The notes under the pieces: model-generated
What the model was told of the DNA's origin: nothing
Database searches by the model: none
The model's input: only the letters and a program-made list of their open reading frames with translations
Shown here: one piece after another, positions 12,937 to 27,961 of the stretch
Numbering within the stretch: position 1 is the first letter of the stretch
Layout of the letters: every line of letters starts with the position of its first letter
Translations under genes and position numbers: made by a program
From: a virus
Virus record (IMG/VR): IMGVR_UViG_3300023175_000044
Location: 1 to 56,808 of that record
Strand: one strand, 5' to 3'
Length of the DNA stretch: 56,808 nucleotides

Positions 12937-15525
12937 CTATTTATAAGATTTTGTTGGTCTAAAAACTCTTTGTCCAATATGATCACACATTAAACTTGTA
13001 TCAGCCCAAACTTCAAACCCCGCCGCGCGAGCTTTTTGACAAAAATAAGTATCTTCAGATATTGTATTTTTATGATCTATCGCAGACTTATATAAGAAAT
13101 GAGGATATTCTAATGCTCTATAAACCTCACCTTTAACTAACACACAACCAAATCCACAACCACCAACTTGAACTAAACCATGTGGCAATCCATCAAGTAT
13201 TGCATGGTCTAAACCTCCAGTTTGAGGATTATCTAAAAATATTTCAGGTCTATTTTCATCATTTCTTTGAACATAAACACCAGAAACAATATCTTTATCA
13301 TATGATATTAATCTCTGTAATGTGTCAGTTGGTAATACTATATCTGAATCTACATGTAATACAAAATCATAGTTCTTACCCCATTCAGCTATTAAGTTTC
13401 TTATTTGATCTACTTGATAACCATAAAAAAATTCTAATTGTGTTTTGTATCCATCTGGAATTTTTAAATCATATATTGATTTAAATGTATCAGATTCAAT
13501 ATTTTTGTTTGTTGGTATAGCAATTAATATTTTTTTCAATTCAGAGTCTTTCTTATATGAAATAGAAGCATTTTTATTTTGTTCTATTGTATTTACTTTA
13601 TAATCATTTAAAGGATTTATATCATTATAGTAACAAACTATTTCCTTTACTGCTTTAACTTTTTCGGGTGGAACCTTTTCAATTAACTCATAAAATAATG
13701 GATTATCCATACCACTCATTAAAAAGTTTCCATTTTCTTTAAAAACTTCTTCATTTAATTCTAAACAGTATTCTCCTTTTACTGTTCGTAAATGAGTATA
13801 AGGAATTTTCCAATTAAATAAATGCTCTCTATAAGTTTTATTTTCTTTTACCTTTTTAGGATAATCTTGAGCAACCAAAGGAATTTCATCAGCTAAACTC
13901 CACATAGATCCATATGTAAATTCGTAGCCTTCATCGTACAATCTATTATAATAATCAAATAAAGTATTATTACTAACTAAAAAGTCATCACCGTCTAAAA
14001 ACATAACGATGTCATCTTTTTTAACAAACTTACTAATAGCTTTTAATTGATTTGCAATACAGCCTTCTCTTTTAGAATTTCTTATCACAGCTCTATTTTT
14101 ATTTTCAGGTATAATAGGTGTATCTTCTGATGCGTCATCTATTAATACATGAATATAATTACTATAGTCTTGCTGCTCAACTGATTTACAGTGAGTATAA
14201 ACATAATCATTTGCATTTCTAAATGGAGAAACGACTATTATTCTTCTTTCTGTTCCAATTTTAGGATGGACAATTAAATCATCTTCATTTACAAATTTTC
14301 TTCCATAGATTCTTGCTACGTCTTTATTAATTTTATTCACTTTTTGAAAATCTATTTTTGGTAAATAGTCTTCAACTTTTCTATAAAAATGTTGCTTCCA
14401 TTGTAATGCTATAGTAGACCATGAATAAATGTCATTTACTACATCACAATAATTTTGTTTTTGCATAAGCAAATAATCATTATGATAAGCTTCTAATACT
14501 AAATCTACAAATTTTTTAGATTGTTCTTCTGCGTTTATATAAGGAAATAATCCATTTGGAACTATTGGATAATCAGTTTTATAACATGCTAAATCAATAG
14601 CTGTTTCTTCTAAAGCACCAAAATTATTTGTAATAACTGGTGTTTTATATAAAAGAGATTCTAAAGTTGATATGCCAAATGTTTCAGGATATTCAGTTGG
14701 ATATAACATAAAGGTAGCATTAGCAATTGTTTCTGCCACCTTTTGTTGTGAAACTACACCAGTAAACGATACATCTAAATTACTATTTTCAAATTCTTTT
14801 TGGTAACGAATTAAATCTTGTTCTTGTTTATCAGGCTCGGCTTTATCTGAAAACTTGTAAAATCCACCTACTACTGTTAGTCTTGCATCAGGTATTTTTT
14901 CCTTTACTTTTGGCCAAATTAATTGTAATAAAGGATTAAGACCTTTAGTTACAGCAGATGCATATACAAAATGATTTTTATCTTTCTGAGATATATCAAC
15001 CTCATCTATATGCTTAGTTGCGCCATTTCTAGTTTGAAAAATATAAGGTTTCATCACTTCAAACATTCTTTTAATGTTAAAGTGGTCACTTGTTGTAGTA
15101 TATACTGTGTGGAAATCGGATAAAGTAAATAACTGGTGTATTACTCCAGTTTCCAATAAGTTCGGTATTGATTCATCGCCCCAAGCAAAAGTATCATGTA
15201 ACCACATTACTCTGTACTTTGAAGCCATAACCATGTGATGATATCTTTGGGGTTCAAGAAAAGGAATTGTTGTTCTAGAAACTATAGTGATATCAAATCT
15301 TTCGCTGAAATCTGCTTCACTATGATCGACATATCTCACATTATCATAGATTCCAGATGAAGAAGTTTCATCATTACAATTATTAAATACAGTAACTTCA
15401 AATCCAATTTTTTGAAGTTCTCTTGACATCATTACTACTGCATATTCGGATCCACCTAGTCCACGTTTACTAAGTGTATCACCATCATATACTAAGCCTA
15501 AAGGGTCAATAAATGCAATTTTCAT
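12937..15525 (-). CDS. Three-domain glycosyltransferase fusion (GT4-like + two GT-A domains)
   Basis: An 862-residue protein that looks like three sugar-transfer domains in a row. Residues 1 to about 385 are GT-B, family 4-like: MKIAFIDPLGLVYDGDT with a GLGGSEYAVVMM loop, then YPETFGISTLESLLYKTPV with the E-x7-E arrangement. Residues about 430-660 are GT-A, family 2-like: VSPFRNANDYV, HVLIDDASED, and FLDGDDFL with the DxD near 516. Residues about 668-862 are a second GT-A unit: ILIAIPTNKNIES, HVDSDIVLP with DSD near 725, and SEDTYFCQKARAAGFEVW near 827-844. No membrane segment is visible. It sits between glycine-rich adhesin genes and the neck operon, with an AATAAATA box 22 bases upstream. 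Substrate unknown; virion protein or host glycan modification are both possible. Confidence 0.88.
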   Translation of the reverse strand: MKIAFIDPLGLVYDGDTLSKRGLGGSEYAVVMMSRELQKIGFEVTVFNNCNDETSSSGIYDNVRYVDHSEADFSERFDITIVSRTTIPFLEPQRYHHMVMASKYRVMWLHDTFAWGDESIPNLLETGVIHQLFTLSDFHTVYTTTSDHFNIKRMFEVMKPYIFQTRNGATKHIDEVDISQKDKNHFVYASAVTKGLNPLLQLIWPKVKEKIPDARLTVVGGFYKFSDKAEPDKQEQDLIRYQKEFENSNLDVSFTGVVSQQKVAETIANATFMLYPTEYPETFGISTLESLLYKTPVITNNFGALEETAIDLACYKTDYPIVPNGLFPYINAEEQSKKFVDLVLEAYHNDYLLMQKQNYCDVVNDIYSWSTIALQWKQHFYRKVEDYLPKIDFQKVNKINKDVARIYGRKFVNEDDLIVHPKIGTERRIIVVSPFRNANDYVYTHCKSVEQQDYSNYIHVLIDDASEDTPIIPENKNRAVIRNSKREGCIANQLKAISKFVKKDDIVMFLDGDDFLVSNNTLFDYYNRLYDEGYEFTYGSMWSLADEIPLVAQDYPKKVKENKTYREHLFNWKIPYTHLRTVKGEYCLELNEEVFKENGNFLMSGMDNPLFYELIEKVPPEKVKAVKEIVCYYNDINPLNDYKVNTIEQNKNASISYKKDSELKKILIAIPTNKNIESDTFKSIYDLKIPDGYKTQLEFFYGYQVDQIRNLIAEWGKNYDFVLHVDSDIVLPTDTLQRLISYDKDIVSGVYVQRNDENRPEIFLDNPQTGGLDHAILDGLPHGLVQVGGCGFGCVLVKGEVYRALEYPHFLYKSAIDHKNTISEDTYFCQKARAAGFEVWADTSLMCDHIGQRVFRPTKSYK
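12938..12945 (-). promoter_or_regulatory. T4-type late promoter TATAAATA
   Basis: Exact TATAAATA, 29 bases before gp13 ATG 12908. The last two bases (TA) plus the next G form the TAG stop codon of the upstream glycosyltransferase gene, so promoter and stop overlap. Confidence 0.85.
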
Positions 15526-20302: not shown

Positions 20303-22678
20303 TTATCCAAAAATTAACGCCATTGCGATTGCTAAACCAATACCTGCACCATCTGCGCCTTTTGATCCTGTGTAACCTCTATCACCTTTAGATCCGGTAT
20401 ATCCTCGATCTCCTTTTGATCCTGTGTAACCTCTATCACCTTTAGATCCTGTATATCCTCGATTTCCTTTAGATCCAGTATAACCTCGATCTCCCTTTGA
20501 GCCCGTATATCCTCGATCTCCTTTGGAGCCCGTATATCCTCGATCTCCTTTTGATCCAGTGAAGCCAGTATCACCTTTTGAACCAGTATATCCTCTATCA
20601 CCTTGAGATCCAGTAAATCCTCTATCACCTTTAGATCCATCATAACCAGTATCACCTTTAGACCCCGTATAACCTCGATCTCCTTTTGATCCAGTATAAC
20701 CTTTTACACCATCATGAGCAAAAGAAAAAGTAACTTTAGGATATGTAGGATAACCACCACTTACTCTTCTAGCGTTAAAATGATCGCCTGCGTTTGCAGA
20801 TATATTTAAACTACTAGAAACAGTGATAGTCGAGCCTACATTGATTGTAATTGTTGGCATACCAACTGAACTATTATTTTTATAAAGTTGTACCGTAGTA
20901 TTTGTGCCTGTAGGTGCACCTGCACTAACAACTGAAACTCTATCAAGATTACAATCCACTGGAACGGGTGGGCCACGACCTGTGCTATTATCACCGTCGC
21001 CGAAAGCTAAATATTGAGACCAAGTTCCTGCTTGTTCACCGACATAAACAAAATATCCTCCTCCTGATCCATTTGCTCCAGCTAATCCTTGAACACCTTG
21101 GTCACCTTTAGAACCAGTGAATCCAGTTACACCTCTTGATCCAGTGAATCCAGTTACACCTCTTGATCCAGTGTAACCTCGTGAACCAGTATATCCTCGA
21201 TCACCTTTCGATCCCGTATATCCTCGATCACCTTTCGATCCAGTATATCCTCTGTCACCTTTCGATCCAGTATAACCAATATCACCTTTCGATCCCGTAT
21301 ATCCTCGATCACCTTTCGATCCAGTATAACCAACGAACTGACCAACATTATTCCAAGTTGACCCATCATAAACCCAAAGACTACCGGTTGCCTGATCAAC
21401 CACACCATCACCAGCCGAAGCTGAAGGAAAAGCTGAGTTTAAAGTAGTTTGAGGATTATTTGGAGGATTTACATTAACATCTGCTACTGATCCAGCAATT
21501 GTAACAGATGTACCATCATCACCTTTTGATCCGGTATATCCTCTATCACCTTTAGATCCAGTATAACCGATATCACCTTTTGATCCTGTAAATCCTCGTG
21601 AACCAGTATAACCGATATCCCCTTTTGATCCGGTATATCCTCTATCACCTTTAGATCCAGTATAACCGATATCACCTTTTGATCCTGTAAATCCTTTAGA
21701 TCCAGTAAATCCTCGTGAACCTGTAAAACCTATGTCACCTTTCGATCCAGTATAACCAATATCACCTTTCGATCCACTATAACCGATATCACCAAAAGAA
21801 CCAGTAAAACCAGTATCACCTCTTGATCCAGTATATCCTCTATCTCCTTTGGAGCCTGTATATCCTATATCACCTTGAGAGCCAGTAAAACCTCTATCAC
21901 CTTTAGATCCGGTATATCCGCGAAACCCTTGAGATCCTGTAAATCCTCTTACACCTTGAGATCCAGTAAATCCAGTATCGCCTTGAGATCCTGTAAATCC
22001 TCTTGATCCAGTATATCCTATATTACCTTGTGATCCAACAAATCCCGTTTGCCCCTGATGAATAAAATTAATAAGTACTTTATCATTATTTTGCCAGTTT
22101 GCTCCGCCTGATACACCAGTAACAGTTAATCTTCTAGCACTACCTGTTGCAACAACACTACCAGTAACTTCATAAATAATAAATCCACTATCTGCCGCAT
22201 CTAGAGATCTTACATATAAGTAACCTCTATTTGTACTAGAACCAAAATCATCAAATGTGTCAATATAACCATTTTGATTATTATTAAGATCATCAAACGC
22301 ATCAATAGCAATTTCAGTGGCACTAGTAAAAGTTGCATTATTAAAAACCATTTGGCCTGCATCAGTGTCCTGCGCAGTATTAGTAGTAGTTGTGTCTACA
22401 TAATATATGATTCCAAGTGAGTTTGAAGATCCAGTAAATCCTCTTGAACCTGTAAAGCCTCGAGATCCTGTAAAACCTCTTGATCCCGCATAACCTAAAA
22501 GACCTCTTGATCCAGTATATCCTGCTCCTTTAGATCCAGTAAATCCTCTTGATCCAGTGTATCCTACTGGAGCATCTACAAGCCAAGATGTTGTATTAGA
22601 ATCATATGTGTAATCAATCCCATTAGCGCTATATGTATCACCATTATTAGGATTAGGTGGAAAATTTAAAATTGCCAT
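20303..22678 (-). CDS. Collagen-like tail fibre
   Basis: A 791-residue fibre. Residues 1-38 are a small head domain (MAILNFPPNPNNGDTYSANG) shared in pattern with the 318-residue C1q-like protein. Collagen-type Gly-X-Y repeats fill about 39-85, 212-390, 450-539 and 657-776, roughly 145 triplets, mostly from the nine-residue unit GYTGSKGDR or GYTGSKGDI. Between them lie three globular inserts: about 86-211, 391-449 and 540-656, the last with C1q-like features. The C-terminus GAGIGLAIAMALIFG is hydrophobic. Lys in the Y position followed by Gly-Asp gives interchain salt bridges that stabilise triple helices without hydroxyproline. The protein should trimerise as a long flexible fibre. Confidence 0.9.
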   Translation of the reverse strand: MAILNFPPNPNNGDTYSANGIDYTYDSNTTSWLVDAPVGYTGSRGFTGSKGAGYTGSRGLLGYAGSRGFTGSRGFTGSRGFTGSSNSLGIIYYVDTTTTNTAQDTDAGQMVFNNATFTSATEIAIDAFDDLNNNQNGYIDTFDDFGSSTNRGYLYVRSLDAADSGFIIYEVTGSVVATGSARRLTVTGVSGGANWQNNDKVLINFIHQGQTGFVGSQGNIGYTGSRGFTGSQGDTGFTGSQGVRGFTGSQGFRGYTGSKGDRGFTGSQGDIGYTGSKGDRGYTGSRGDTGFTGSFGDIGYSGSKGDIGYTGSKGDIGFTGSRGFTGSKGFTGSKGDIGYTGSKGDRGYTGSKGDIGYTGSRGFTGSKGDIGYTGSKGDRGYTGSKGDDGTSVTIAGSVADVNVNPPNNPQTTLNSAFPSASAGDGVVDQATGSLWVYDGSTWNNVGQFVGYTGSKGDRGYTGSKGDIGYTGSKGDRGYTGSKGDRGYTGSKGDRGYTGSRGYTGSRGVTGFTGSRGVTGFTGSKGDQGVQGLAGANGSGGGYFVYVGEQAGTWSQYLAFGDGDNSTGRGPPVPVDCNLDRVSVVSAGAPTGTNTTVQLYKNNSSVGMPTITINVGSTITVSSSLNISANAGDHFNARRVSGGYPTYPKVTFSFAHDGVKGYTGSKGDRGYTGSKGDTGYDGSKGDRGFTGSQGDRGYTGSKGDTGFTGSKGDRGYTGSKGDRGYTGSKGDRGYTGSKGNRGYTGSKGDRGYTGSKGDRGYTGSKGDRGYTGSKGADGAGIGLAIAMALIFG
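20351..20710. repeat. 27-bp coding repeats of the collagen segment, C-terminal block
   Basis: Tandem 27-bp units encoding GYTGSKGDR, with plus-strand text such as cctcgatctccttttgatcc. Comparable blocks are at 21062-21331, 21509-22045 and 22424-22564. The copies are near identical in DNA, which allows unequal recombination and changes of fibre length. Confidence 0.88.
21062..21331. repeat. 27-bp coding repeats of the collagen segment, third block
   Basis: Same unit as the C-terminal block, encoding residues about 450-539 of the collagen-like fibre, with GDR- and GVTGFTGSR-type variants at the distal end. Confidence 0.85.
21509..22045. repeat. 27-bp coding repeats of the collagen segment, second block
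   Basis: The longest block, about 179 codons, encoding residues about 212-390. Units are a mix of GYTGSKGDI, GYTGSKGDR, GFTGSQGDT and GFTGSRGFT types, so this block looks older and more diverged than the last one. Confidence 0.85.
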
Positions 22679-22681
22679 TTA

Positions 22682-25600
22682 TTAACTCCCGCTTGATTTT
22701 GCAAGCACATTTCTTTCTGGGTCAAATTCAACTATAACACCATGCACTTCTTTATCCCATGTTGCTTCTGAATAGCCGGTTATAAGTAGTGAAGATCCAT
22801 TATTATCAACACTATAAGAAAAATCAGAAGAACCTGATCCAACTTGATATTTTCTCCATCCTTTATAACCACCATTTAATGTATCACTATCAAAGTCAAA
22901 GATGCCTAAAACCATGTCTTTTAATCCAAATGTTACAGCATCATCCGCGAACGCACCTGAACTATTTGCAACTACTGCTATTCTTCCATCAGCTAGTCTT
23001 GTGCTAGGTTTTCCATTTTGATCTATTTCTTCTGAAGTTTCTGATCCGGTTGTAAATCCTTCACTCCAAACATCAGTATCATAATTAAACGTAATTACTC
23101 CAATATCTTCTGATCCAAATGTTGGGCCGCCATTCATAGATCCAAAAGTTGTGTATACTAAAGCTAATGTATTAGGTATAGTGCTATCTATATCATGAAC
23201 ATTCATTGCTTTATCATTATATCCAGACCCCATATTATAATATTCTGCTCCCCAATTCCTAGGATCAAATATACCTAAAAATAAATCATATCCTCCAAAT
23301 GTTGGCGTATCTACAGAATCTCCTAATTGACCAGTAGTTCGTCCACAAAATGCTATGTGTCCTTTTTTAGCACCACCTGTACCCGTTGCAGTTTGTATCC
23401 AGAATGGATGCCCAGTGTTATTTACTGTAAAGACAACTGTATCATTTGTTTGTATAGTAATTGTAGGATTATCTGTACTGGAATTAATAGTTCCATTTCT
23501 ATCAGATCCACTAAATCTAAATGCGCCTGGCGCGTTTGTATATAAGACTTCAATATTATATGTGTTTCCTCCAACACCTACTGTAACATTCAATGATCCA
23601 TTCATACCTTGATGGTTTCCACATTGATAAAAATATGAACCAGCGGTTGAAGGCGTCCAACTAATAGTTCCTTTGCTAGCGCCATTATTTTCAGCTTCAG
23701 GATTAGTTACAGCTTTAGATGTTCCACGCAATTCAGTTAAAGCGTAAATTTCTTCATCATCTGCTGTTCCATTTTGCCAAAATCTAAATTGTTCTGATGC
23801 AATGTCCCATTGGCCTAAGAAATAATCATAAACACCAGATAAACCTGTATTTTGTTTAGCAATCATACCTGAAGTTTGTCCTGCTAAATAATAATATTCA
23901 CCATCTTTAGATTTAATTACGTCATACATAAACACGTTTCCGTCATCAGCAGTAGCATCACCAACTGTTGATACTTGGTGTATTTGAAATAAATCATTAG
24001 CTCTATGTACTCTAATACCATTAGCTACATTTTCTTTATATGTGTCAGTGTTTAAGAATGATTGTAAATCTGCTTTATCAACTATTCCTAAGAAACCTGT
24101 AAACAATCCATTAGCACCATATGATCCATTATATTCTAAACTATTATATGTTGATGTAATCATAGAAGGATTATAGCTATCAACATCTAATATACTGTCT
24201 GGCGCCGCAGGGTTACTATCTTTAGTTACATTTGGCCAAGTCCAATCTGTAACATAAAAAGGTGCAGAATCATAGTAATACGCATTTGAGGTTGAAGAAG
24301 ATGTGTGATACACACCTTGCCCAAATCCTTCTTTATCACCTCTAAATAAAACTCCATCTTTACCTGGAGAGTGAGAAGAAGATCCACCAGCTACAACAAA
24401 GTTTCTAAAATTATGATCCCATACAACATCAGTGTTTATATAATCTTCACCCATATGGCCGAATGAGCTTCTAAAATATAAAGAACCATCATTATCATTA
24501 AATCCAAAAATTGCGGTATCACTTCTTTTAAGAGTACTAGCATCACTATCTAATCCTAGGCCATCTGCAAATGCAACCACTCTATGATTGCCATTATGGA
24601 AAAATTCTGTTTCATTAAACCACCAAGGTCTCATATCCGATTCTTCAATCAATAGAGTAGTAACACCTTCAATATATCCCATATGTGAGTTTAGTTGCTT
24701 TGCCCACAATGTACTAGTTTTATAATTACTGTCTACGAATTTAATTTTTTCATAAATACCATAACTAACATGTCCAGGTGTACTACCCAATGGTGTAGAC
24801 GGATCTGTGTATGGTGCAGAATCTCCAGTCAATAAGCTAACATCTTCTGCTCGACCTCCTAATAATAAATCATAAGTACCAGTAGCCGAATCATATTTTG
24901 CAACTCTAATGACATCAAATCTGCTTTCATTAACATCCCAATCGCTATTAGGATCAGAAATTAGCTCATATGATGCTTCGTTGGCTCCCCATTTATCTTC
25001 AATATATTGTATAACATCTCCAGTATTAATATCACCATAAGCAAAAAATGGGGTTTTATAAACTCTAGTTGGGGAAGACAGTTCGATACCTGATGCACCA
25101 GCAATAAAAAATGTACCAGTATTAGGCGCGCCGGGCGTAATTGAAGATACCCATCTTTGCGTAGAGGGAGATGATACTAAACCACTTATTGATTTTTGGA
25201 AAATTACACTTCCATTTGAAGTATTAACACCAAATAAAACACCTTCTTTTTGATAATCTTCTTGATTAACAGTAGTGTTTATTTGAGCAAAACAAATTGC
25301 ATATTCAGTTCCTGAATTTTGAATTAAACAATGATCGGTTATTGTTAAATAATTTGTACTAGATCCAAATCCTTTAGCCCAATTTACAGTTGTAAGATCA
25401 GAATCAACATTCATAACAAACGCATTTTTTTCTAATGTTAAATTTTTAGTTCCACCAGTAACTAATCTTTTGTTATTGGCCGTAGTAAGAACACCAGAAA
25501 AATTATCAGATTCAGCACCTAATGACATAGCAACAGTCGTTAAGTAATCAAAATTCTTATTATAACATGTAAGAAGAGCATCTCCATTTAAATTATCATT

Positions 25601-27961
25601 TGCAGATAATGTATAATGTCCATATTGATCTATATCAATGCCAGTGAATGTTATTCCTGCTGTATTATCAGTATTTCTTAATCTTCTTGCCCAACCATGA
25701 ACCCACTGATTTGATTTAGTACCTAATTCACCTTTAGCATATCCAGATATCACAAGTCTATCATTTTCTTCATCTTCTATAATACCTGTAATAAAATCAT
25801 CTCCGGTTCCACCCCAAGAATAACTTATTGAGTTATTTTCATTATCAACTATTGTAAGTAATAAATCTCCAGTTTGCTCAGTTCCAGTATTTCCTACATG
25901 TCCTTCAATCCTACCAACTAAAGCTTTTCTTCCATCGCTTAAATAAATTCCTTGGAAAAGATATTCTTCAGAATTAGTGTTTATTTCTTTTCTATTAAAA
26001 AATTGTGGAGAAGCAACATCCCACCTTAAAATAGAAGATCCATTTGGTATACCTTCTGGCTCAATGCTTGTTTTTGCAGTATATTGAGCATCTGCATGAG
26101 TATATTCTATGTATCCACTTGTTGTTGCACCTATATCTTGAAAATATCCAGAATCATTCCATTTTAAATGCTCATAACCATCAAATGTACCTCCAGCTAA
26201 GTCAAAACTATACAATCCTTTAAAATTAGCTTGTCCATCAGCTGAAGCTAATGCATAAAATTTTGTATTCGTTGCATTATACTTAAATCCATGTAATCTT
26301 GCAGGATTTGCAGAATCAGTGCTTATAATTTTTCCTTCATCATAAAAGCTTCCTGTAGAGTCTATTGCTTCAGCGCTATATAAGTGTAAACCACCATCTC
26401 TAGCTGATCCACCAGCAATATAAAGTTTATCGCCTACACTTGTAATTAAAATATCTGGCTTATCATCTCTTCCTGTAAATCTCCATGGAAGATCTACTCT
26501 ACTTAATGTTCCTGGTGAAATAGTATTAGCATCAGTAACACTCCAAATTTGAGCGTCAACACAACCATTAGAAGGTTCTAACACAATTTTACCATACATA
26601 GCAAGGTGAATTACACACACATAATAATAATCACCTGGCGTTAATCCAGTAGTATCCCATGTTACTGTAGCTGTTCCATTACCAGAAGACCCTGCGGCTA
26701 CGTTTTGTGTTGTAGATTGAAGGTTTGTCAAACTATCTTTCACATACATTGGGTGAGCTTGATATGACTGTGTTGCATCAAATACAATAGTATCACCTAC
26801 TTTTAGATATATTGTAGGCTGTTGTGACATAGTGGCGAAATCTCCACCAGCAACATAATCTAATTTATCGGGATCGTCTCTGTGTTCACCGGCGACATAG
26901 TATCGGTTGTTAGCGTTATTTCCATATAATTCTACATTAAATGTCTTATAAGTTGAATTCATTAAAACTGGCCAGTAAACTTTAGTCCCAAAAGCATGTC
27001 CTGCAGATAATCTCATAGGATATTGACTTAAACTACCTTCTGCTTGAGCATCACCACCAGCATAAGGCGTGTTTACAGGATCAGCTAAATCATAAGAACC
27101 ATAATTAACTTCTGGAGTGAAGGACCCCGAACTTGAAGTATATGTTCTTGTATAAAAATTCCAATCTCCACTTCCATTTGAATCTAAATACGCTGCATGG
27201 AATCTATTTGATCCTCCAGAAATGATTCCACCATTTACAAAATTAACACCAGAAGCATTTGGCAAAGTAACATCATTGTGAGAGTTGTGTGCACCACCAA
27301 TAGAAGGTGTGTGAATACGAGCTAATGGAACATTATAAGACCTACCACCAGTGCTAGCTCTTACATTAATTAAATATCCATATTGTTTATCTGCTGGTCT
27401 AATATAATCATCCGCCGCAAAAACAAGTCTACCATCATCAAATTTTGGATAATTAGAAGGTAAGTGTTTATGATATTGATAAAAATTCCAATCGCCGCCT
27501 GCTGTAGTTTGATAAAATCTATCCCAATAAAACGCATCGTCTTCTAATAGACCACCGTTTGTTGGTCCATCATCGCCCCAAGTACCAATATGACCCATAA
27601 AGAAAGCATCATCTTCGCTTACGTTAGTAATATCATTAACTCCAGCGCCAATATGAACAATGCAACCTCCATGATAACGTAAAGTACCATTTCCGTGTGA
27701 TTCATCAATAAATGCTGCAGTTCCATCTAATTCTATTCTATTTGAAAATCCAGAAACTTGGTCAGCTGAAGCAATAGAAGATATAGAATCCCACTCATAT
27801 ATTGTAAGTGAATTACCTGCTAAAGTTGCATTTGAATCATAATCTGAAGGGTGATAAGTATACCAATAACCCTGTTCAGATATATGGTGCATAACTGGAA
27901 GACCCAAAAAATCTGAGTCATCAGCAAGTGCAATAGCTCTAGTTACGTTAGCAATAGTCAT
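22682..27961 (-). CDS. Giant multidomain virion protein with propeller-like repeats and two cupredoxin-like domains
   Basis: A 1759-residue protein without signal peptide. Residues 1 to about 370 are rich in Trp, Tyr and Asn (TYHPSDYDSN, YQYHKHLPSNYPKF). About 375-465 is a cupredoxin-like domain: VGDTIVFDATQSYQAHPMYV, then DYYYVCVIHLAMYGKIVLE with the amicyanin-type Cys-x2-His-x2-Met. About 490-1400 has beta-propeller-like repeats (SWGGTGDDFITGIIEDEENDR, LVISGYAKGELG; ANNKRLVTGGT). About 1420-1540 holds a second cupredoxin whose C-terminal half (GSYFYQCGNHQGMNGSLNV) precedes its N-terminal half (TVVFTVNNTGHPFWIQT). The rest continues the propeller pattern. It starts 3 bases after the small gene at 27965. 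Likely a distal receptor-binding fibre or spike; no enzymatic motif is visible. Confidence 0.8.
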   Translation of the reverse strand: MTIANVTRAIALADDSDFLGLPVMHHISEQGYWYTYHPSDYDSNATLAGNSLTIYEWDSISSIASADQVSGFSNRIELDGTAAFIDESHGNGTLRYHGGCIVHIGAGVNDITNVSEDDAFFMGHIGTWGDDGPTNGGLLEDDAFYWDRFYQTTAGGDWNFYQYHKHLPSNYPKFDDGRLVFAADDYIRPADKQYGYLINVRASTGGRSYNVPLARIHTPSIGGAHNSHNDVTLPNASGVNFVNGGIISGGSNRFHAAYLDSNGSGDWNFYTRTYTSSSGSFTPEVNYGSYDLADPVNTPYAGGDAQAEGSLSQYPMRLSAGHAFGTKVYWPVLMNSTYKTFNVELYGNNANNRYYVAGEHRDDPDKLDYVAGGDFATMSQQPTIYLKVGDTIVFDATQSYQAHPMYVKDSLTNLQSTTQNVAAGSSGNGTATVTWDTTGLTPGDYYYVCVIHLAMYGKIVLEPSNGCVDAQIWSVTDANTISPGTLSRVDLPWRFTGRDDKPDILITSVGDKLYIAGGSARDGGLHLYSAEAIDSTGSFYDEGKIISTDSANPARLHGFKYNATNTKFYALASADGQANFKGLYSFDLAGGTFDGYEHLKWNDSGYFQDIGATTSGYIEYTHADAQYTAKTSIEPEGIPNGSSILRWDVASPQFFNRKEINTNSEEYLFQGIYLSDGRKALVGRIEGHVGNTGTEQTGDLLLTIVDNENNSISYSWGGTGDDFITGIIEDEENDRLVISGYAKGELGTKSNQWVHGWARRLRNTDNTAGITFTGIDIDQYGHYTLSANDNLNGDALLTCYNKNFDYLTTVAMSLGAESDNFSGVLTTANNKRLVTGGTKNLTLEKNAFVMNVDSDLTTVNWAKGFGSSTNYLTITDHCLIQNSGTEYAICFAQINTTVNQEDYQKEGVLFGVNTSNGSVIFQKSISGLVSSPSTQRWVSSITPGAPNTGTFFIAGASGIELSSPTRVYKTPFFAYGDINTGDVIQYIEDKWGANEASYELISDPNSDWDVNESRFDVIRVAKYDSATGTYDLLLGGRAEDVSLLTGDSAPYTDPSTPLGSTPGHVSYGIYEKIKFVDSNYKTSTLWAKQLNSHMGYIEGVTTLLIEESDMRPWWFNETEFFHNGNHRVVAFADGLGLDSDASTLKRSDTAIFGFNDNDGSLYFRSSFGHMGEDYINTDVVWDHNFRNFVVAGGSSSHSPGKDGVLFRGDKEGFGQGVYHTSSSTSNAYYYDSAPFYVTDWTWPNVTKDSNPAAPDSILDVDSYNPSMITSTYNSLEYNGSYGANGLFTGFLGIVDKADLQSFLNTDTYKENVANGIRVHRANDLFQIHQVSTVGDATADDGNVFMYDVIKSKDGEYYYLAGQTSGMIAKQNTGLSGVYDYFLGQWDIASEQFRFWQNGTADDEEIYALTELRGTSKAVTNPEAENNGASKGTISWTPSTAGSYFYQCGNHQGMNGSLNVTVGVGGNTYNIEVLYTNAPGAFRFSGSDRNGTINSSTDNPTITIQTNDTVVFTVNNTGHPFWIQTATGTGGAKKGHIAFCGRTTGQLGDSVDTPTFGGYDLFLGIFDPRNWGAEYYNMGSGYNDKAMNVHDIDSTIPNTLALVYTTFGSMNGGPTFGSEDIGVITFNYDTDVWSEGFTTGSETSEEIDQNGKPSTRLADGRIAVVANSSGAFADDAVTFGLKDMVLGIFDFDSDTLNGGYKGWRKYQVGSGSSDFSYSVDNNGSSLLITGYSEATWDKEVHGVIVEFDPERNVLAKSSGS

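Follow-up and report, generated by a model that had tools for sequence, protein, structure and literature searches.

A circularly permuted cupredoxin inserted in a propeller loop of a probable tail-fibre protein from a marine T4-like phage

Previous studies have reported natural circular permutation of proteins, such as the imelysin of Bacteroidales, in which permutation is supported by close canonical homologues (PMC3143127). For RNA polymerase, insertions that are also circularly permuted have been noted (PMC13114784). Natural circular permutation, domain insertion and the co-occurrence of both are known kinds of events (PMC3143127; PMC13114784). For the cupredoxin fold, a permuted azurin made in the laboratory has been described (5SYD). 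In the literature that we searched, with incomplete coverage of subscription journals, we found no description of a naturally permuted cupredoxin, nor of phage tail proteins in which a permuted domain is repeatedly inserted.

The window analyzed here is a stretch of 56,808 nucleotides from IMG/VR record IMGVR_UViG_3300023175_000044. It contains a minus-strand ORF of 1759 aa (22682..27961) encoding a propeller-like, tail-fibre-type protein with two cupredoxin domains. The initial annotation had proposed that a circularly permuted cupredoxin is inserted in this protein and had given the coordinates of the whole ORF; the ORF was correctly located, and the element itself occupies positions 23366-23728. 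The AlphaFold2 model of residues 1330-1759 (22 sequences, mean pLDDT 82.7) matched beta-propellers in Foldseek, including CylK, sialidases and clathrin, and the homologue L048 contains SBBP beta-propeller repeats above the Pfam cut-off, both of which agree with the propeller-like character assigned earlier. The neighbouring genes are T4-like (major head protein, portal, tail sheath, baseplate wedge and an adjoining collagen-like tail fibre), and the nearest named major head proteins are those of phage C48C1, Methylophilales phages and pelagiphage HTVC008M. This neighbourhood supports the previous label of phage fibre, and the cupredoxin-bearing protein probably belongs to the tail tip. In named phages no counterpart of the host protein was found, and only its cupredoxin at residues 340-462 gave matches.

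Two other ORFs of the window were also noticed. The adjoining collagen-like tail-fibre ORF (20303-22678, 791 aa) has GYTGSKGDR-type triplet repeats broken by small globular segments. An ORF of 862 aa (12937-15525), located between the head/terminase genes and the tail-fibre genes, has glycosyltransferase family matches in both its N-terminal and C-terminal parts.

The inserted block comprises residues 1412-1532 (23366..23728, minus strand, as are all features below). Half-domain HMMs recognized its two parts separately and in the reverse of the normal order, as had been proposed. The half carrying the Cys-His-Met strand, normally the second, comes first (residues 1417-1461, 23579..23713, AVTNPEAENNGASKGTISWTPSTAGSYFYQCGNHQGMNGSLNVTV; C-half HMM, 60 bits, E 7.5e-19). 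It is followed by a short linker, GVGGN (residues 1462-1466, 23564..23578), which would bridge the two former termini, from the C- to the N-terminal one, corresponds to the link described earlier and varies from 6 to 22 aa across homologues. The half with strands 1-5 and the first His, normally the first, comes second (residues 1467-1530, 23372..23563, TYNIEVL...GHPFWIQTATGTGG; N-half HMM, 57 bits, E 5.6e-18). Three of the four type-1-copper ligands are provided by Cys1447-x2-His1450-x2-Met1453 (23603..23623), while the fourth, His1518 (23408..23410), lies C-terminal of the other three; all four are conserved without exception in the 10 permuted homologues compared.

To evaluate the order of the halves, we built an HMM from 66 cupredoxins of ordinary order, taken from phages and bacteria outside the host family of the window protein, and used it to score the block in all its possible rotations. 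The unrotated block scored 53.5 bits and covered columns 62-105 only, whereas the best of all rotations scored 112.2 bits over columns 1-105, with the cut exactly at the linker. The two halves, when exchanged, indeed read as one ordinary domain. The same behaviour was observed in nine homologues (ten proteins in all), and a control domain of ordinary order needed no rotation. When searched against PDB sequences, the rotated block gave matches to plastocyanins and amicyanins that extend over both halves (E 0.002), whereas the match of the unrotated one was limited to the C half of a pseudoazurin. The score for Pfam Copper-bind (PF00127) was 15.3 bits as is and 18.6 bits after rotation; because neither reaches the cut-off of 21.2, which the ordinary-order phage relatives likewise miss, the block is filed as cupredoxin-like by profile and ligands and not as a Copper-bind member. 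The unpermuted form, which it had been suggested to look for, is present in many phages: plain N-C order was found in 53 ORFs, with one cultured phage among their sources, and in further ones from a later search, and all bacterial matches that could be classed have the ordinary order. Judged by its sequence, the block appears to be a circular permutant, with swapped halves, joined old termini and a single-domain match after rotation.

It is very probable that residues 1412-1532 represent a complete circularly permuted cupredoxin, inserted as one unit in a loop that joins two strands of a propeller blade, in a tail-fibre-type protein encoded by a marine T4-like phage. In such an arrangement, the chain would enter the cupredoxin at the variable loop after strand 5, run through strands 6-8 with the Cys, His and Met ligands, pass a short linker in place of the normal termini, continue through strands 1-5 with the first His and return to the propeller at almost the same point. 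Since the points of entry and exit are close together, the permuted domain would sit on a host loop and leave the host fold undisturbed.

Using the last 430 residues of the protein to scan IMG/VR, we identified 39 homologous loci. The permuted block is present in 21 of them, in the same order and at the same site, with insert identity down to ~50%. The remaining 18 lack it exactly at the insertion site, where the host sequence is continuous and reads YALTEL-(AN)GKIAYTGRTTG; the smooth joining of the host that had been predicted for removal of the block is therefore the natural state in 18 homologues. The host strand preceding the insertion (DDEEIYALTEL, 23729..23761) aligns with DEETYALTEL of the empty sites, and the strand following it (KGHIAFCGRTTG, 23330..23365) aligns with NGKIAYTGRTTG, so that an empty site has DEETYALTEL-ANGKIAYTGRTTG and the filled one has DEEIYALTEL, 121 aa of insert and then KGHIAFCGRTTG. 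In a tree of the host part from which the insert columns were omitted, filled and empty loci were split by one branch (support 100/100). This topology fits a single gain of the block by the common ancestor of the filled loci; the host tree has no root, however, and a gain is preferred over a loss on grounds of parsimony, which is not proof. Several propeller proteins with an empty site contain an ordinary-order cupredoxin elsewhere, including L032, L033, L048 (~1025-1127), L041 (824-939) and L044 (810-911), which implies that this host acquires such domains more than once. No conspicuous direct repeats that would point to a recombination event were found at the junctions by an ORF-wide repeat search and inspection of the junction DNA by eye, and no tandem two-domain intermediate was found at the insertion site among the 39 loci.

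Only one cupredoxin had been named in the window protein previously. The permuted one was confirmed, and a second one of ordinary order, which had been missed, is located at residues 339-463 (26573..26947; half HMMs in the order N then C). Its ligands are His403, Cys449, His452 and Met455, and it has a Pfam Copper-bind score of 15.8 bits, under the cut-off. We also considered that the permuted block might have been copied from this domain. The cupredoxin tree sets the permuted copies apart from it, and the candidate was rejected, even though a joint clade was not formally rejected (p-AU 0.33).

Ordinary cupredoxins of this kind were observed in additional proteins. Cyanophage gp9 baseplate wedge tail-fibre connectors from cultured phages (for example S-RIM8 and P-RSM4) contain an ordinary cupredoxin that is unmentioned in the annotation. 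In Bacteroidota (L132-L137, L142 and L144), closely related ordinary cupredoxins are found at the extreme C-terminus of diverse proteins of 129-1334 aa; these belong to marine Flavobacteriaceae and a Flammeovirgaceae MAG, and their placement is tag- or anchor-like.

Besides the SBBP propeller of the window, permuted cupredoxins were identified in two other host types, a subtilase and an Ig-like-region protein, and all permuted copies examined keep the full set of copper ligands. The first is a putative proximal tail fibre encoded by Synechococcus phage S-CAM1 (AOV57849, phrog_15006), a subtilase (Pfam Peptidase_S8, 40.1 bits) with an inserted permuted cupredoxin (residues 190-310), in which the Cys strand YWYQCTAHPNM comes first and strand 6, SGDVVW, comes last. 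Rotation lifts the match of this type from 63-75 to 82-95 bits, and all four ligands are invariant in six copies. Relatives of this protein have a second permuted copy with the same rotation in another subtilase loop (L208 444-545, L213 439-542 and others), which in L208 and L213 is ~60% identical to the first; both cupredoxins are absent from L218, a relative with 50% identity. The second consists of large proteins (L078, L085, L112, L126 and others) with the C half, the start of the N half, a complete ordinary cupredoxin and the remainder of the N half in succession; that is, an ordinary cupredoxin is nested in the strand 2-3 loop of a permuted one. L131, an Ig-like-region protein on a viral contig that is recorded as part of a Prochlorococcus single-cell genome, has the same L085-type arrangement. 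The homologous stretch in PHM1_104 of phage P-HM1 is continuous at the position of the nested domain and has no insert.

Nesting is also observed for ordinary cupredoxins, one inside another, in L089 (1310-1544), L114 (1250-1480) and L097/L098 (515-853). Two ordinary cupredoxins in a row separate the halves of the outer copy in L097/L098, and the outer copy of L114 has lost the Cys and His ligands. Ordinary tandem arrays occur in related phages (L073, L077 and L121), with links of 8 aa in L073 and L077.

With regard to function, the invariance of the four ligands in the window's family and in the S-CAM1 type, despite the reversed chain order, speaks for selection on this site. Whether the type-1 site binds copper, which would happen outside the cell with loading after release, is evenly balanced. 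At about the same level, the permuted domain could be a metal-stabilised surface module of the fibre for adhesion or receptor contact. It is also possible, if somewhat doubtful, that the permuted sandwich has no metal role and is only a structural spacer or a glycan-binding module. Ligand-free cupredoxin copies in related fibres (L114 and L075) and the weak Pfam score are consistent with this, and the persistence of such degenerate copies indicates that the fold can survive without metal; against it, the four ligands are invariant in the ten permuted homologues, which diverge to 49-50% identity, and in the six S-CAM1-type copies.

To examine whether the permuted cupredoxins have one origin or several, we reconstructed a tree of 66 cupredoxins brought into a common order. 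The permuted set of the window formed one group (support 88/99), and the L085-type set formed a separate group (100/100) near its own nested domains. It appears rather unlikely that a single permuted ancestor, moved between host proteins, gave rise to both the window block and the L085 type. The cut lies in the same loop in the two types and a joint clade was not rejected (p-AU 0.19), so the two types may share such an ancestor; on the other hand, the free tree separates them and places the L085 type beside its own nested ordinary domain, the exact cuts are some ten residues apart, and the hosts differ. The S-CAM1 type has a different cut, which requires either a separate permutation or a further rotation. 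The permuted copy probably arose when a piece one period long was taken out of phase from an array of tandem cupredoxins or, alternatively, when a tandem duplication lost its outer halves; the tandem arrays of related phages fit such a route, although the intermediate was not found at this host site. Considering the three host types, at least two rotation points, second-loop copies, nesting and retained ligands, it is likely that marine T4-like phages have repeatedly permuted cupredoxins into modules that can be inserted in loops.

Structure prediction, which the initial annotation had recommended, bears on whether the two halves belong together. AlphaFold2 of the insert alone (ten sequences) gave a pLDDT of 85.8 and a pTM of 0.81, with the linker-flanking strands in blocks of pLDDT >90; eight strands were predicted in the host context and nine for the insert alone (pLDDT 83-86). 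In the model both halves close into one domain without a partner chain, and they are predicted to fold together as one sandwich. It is highly unlikely that the halves are remnants of two neighbouring cupredoxins, either domain-swapped between the chains of a fibre trimer or partly folded. Such a swap would be in line with the fact that fibres are usually trimeric, an origin by tandem duplication would pass through a swapped state, and the linker length of 6-22 aa resembles the short links of the L073 and L077 arrays. However, the partner-free closure is predicted with confidence, and the rotated unit is re-used whole in the second loop of the S-CAM1 relatives, which suggests a self-contained folding unit.

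A Foldseek search of the insert model against 350,542 PDB chains yielded 36 matches, all of them weak. Cupredoxins were represented among them only by 5SYD, whose two chains ranked first and fifth with E-values of 0.99 and 1.5, TM of ~0.35 and rmsd of ~4 over ~95 columns; as these E-values are not significant, the match is weighed only jointly with the sequence evidence. The absence of ordinary cupredoxins from the list is expected for a sequential aligner given a permuted fold. In BFVD, the top match of the insert model was the S-CAM1 putative proximal tail fibre (E 4.6e-5, TM 0.63).

Although the window comes from a metagenomic virus record, an assembly artefact is extremely improbable and was dismissed, as the order and junctions are alike across contigs from many samples at 50-92% identity and seven cultured S-CAM1 records are permuted.

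If the permuted cupredoxin is what it seems to be, nature appears to have done what had been done to azurin in the laboratory, and a set of metal ligands has been retained though its order in the sequence is reversed. Because filled sites can be compared with empty ones, relatives of ordinary order exist and more than one rotation point is represented, the rise and spread of a permuted domain can be traced stepwise. It also points to a way of fibre diversification in phages, in which a closed module is plugged into loops. Annotation tools built on a linear domain order overlook such domains or break them up (no Pfam match above the cut-off in this case), so more cases may be hidden.

Among known systems, the engineered azurin 5SYD likewise has the old C-terminus linked to the old N-terminus; it is man-made and free-standing, whereas the phage domain is natural and inserted. 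The cut in this azurin reportedly lies in other loops than that of the phage domain. Plastocyanin and amicyanin resemble the block after rotation in strand order, the GDTVVF strand, the first His in HPF and the C-x2-H-x2-M of amicyanin; they differ in that the phage halves are reversed, the termini are fused, the domain is inserted in a host loop and the match stays under the Pfam cut-off. The ordinary-order cupredoxins of marine phages (P-HM1 PHM1_104, S-H9-1, S-CAM4, cyanophage gp9 and phrog_677/9158/27200) belong to the same subfamily by sequence and are appended or inserted domains of tail proteins, but their order differs from that of the window block. The S-CAM1 fibre shares with the window protein a naturally permuted cupredoxin inserted in another domain; its cut is before the Cys strand and its host is a subtilase, whereas the cut in the window protein is after strand 5. 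The Bacteroidales imelysin is free-standing and helical, in contrast to the inserted cupredoxin of the window (PMC3143127). The RNA polymerase insertions combine insertion and permutation as observed here; they involve neither cupredoxins nor phages, and the available portion of that report describes no recurrent use (PMC13114784).
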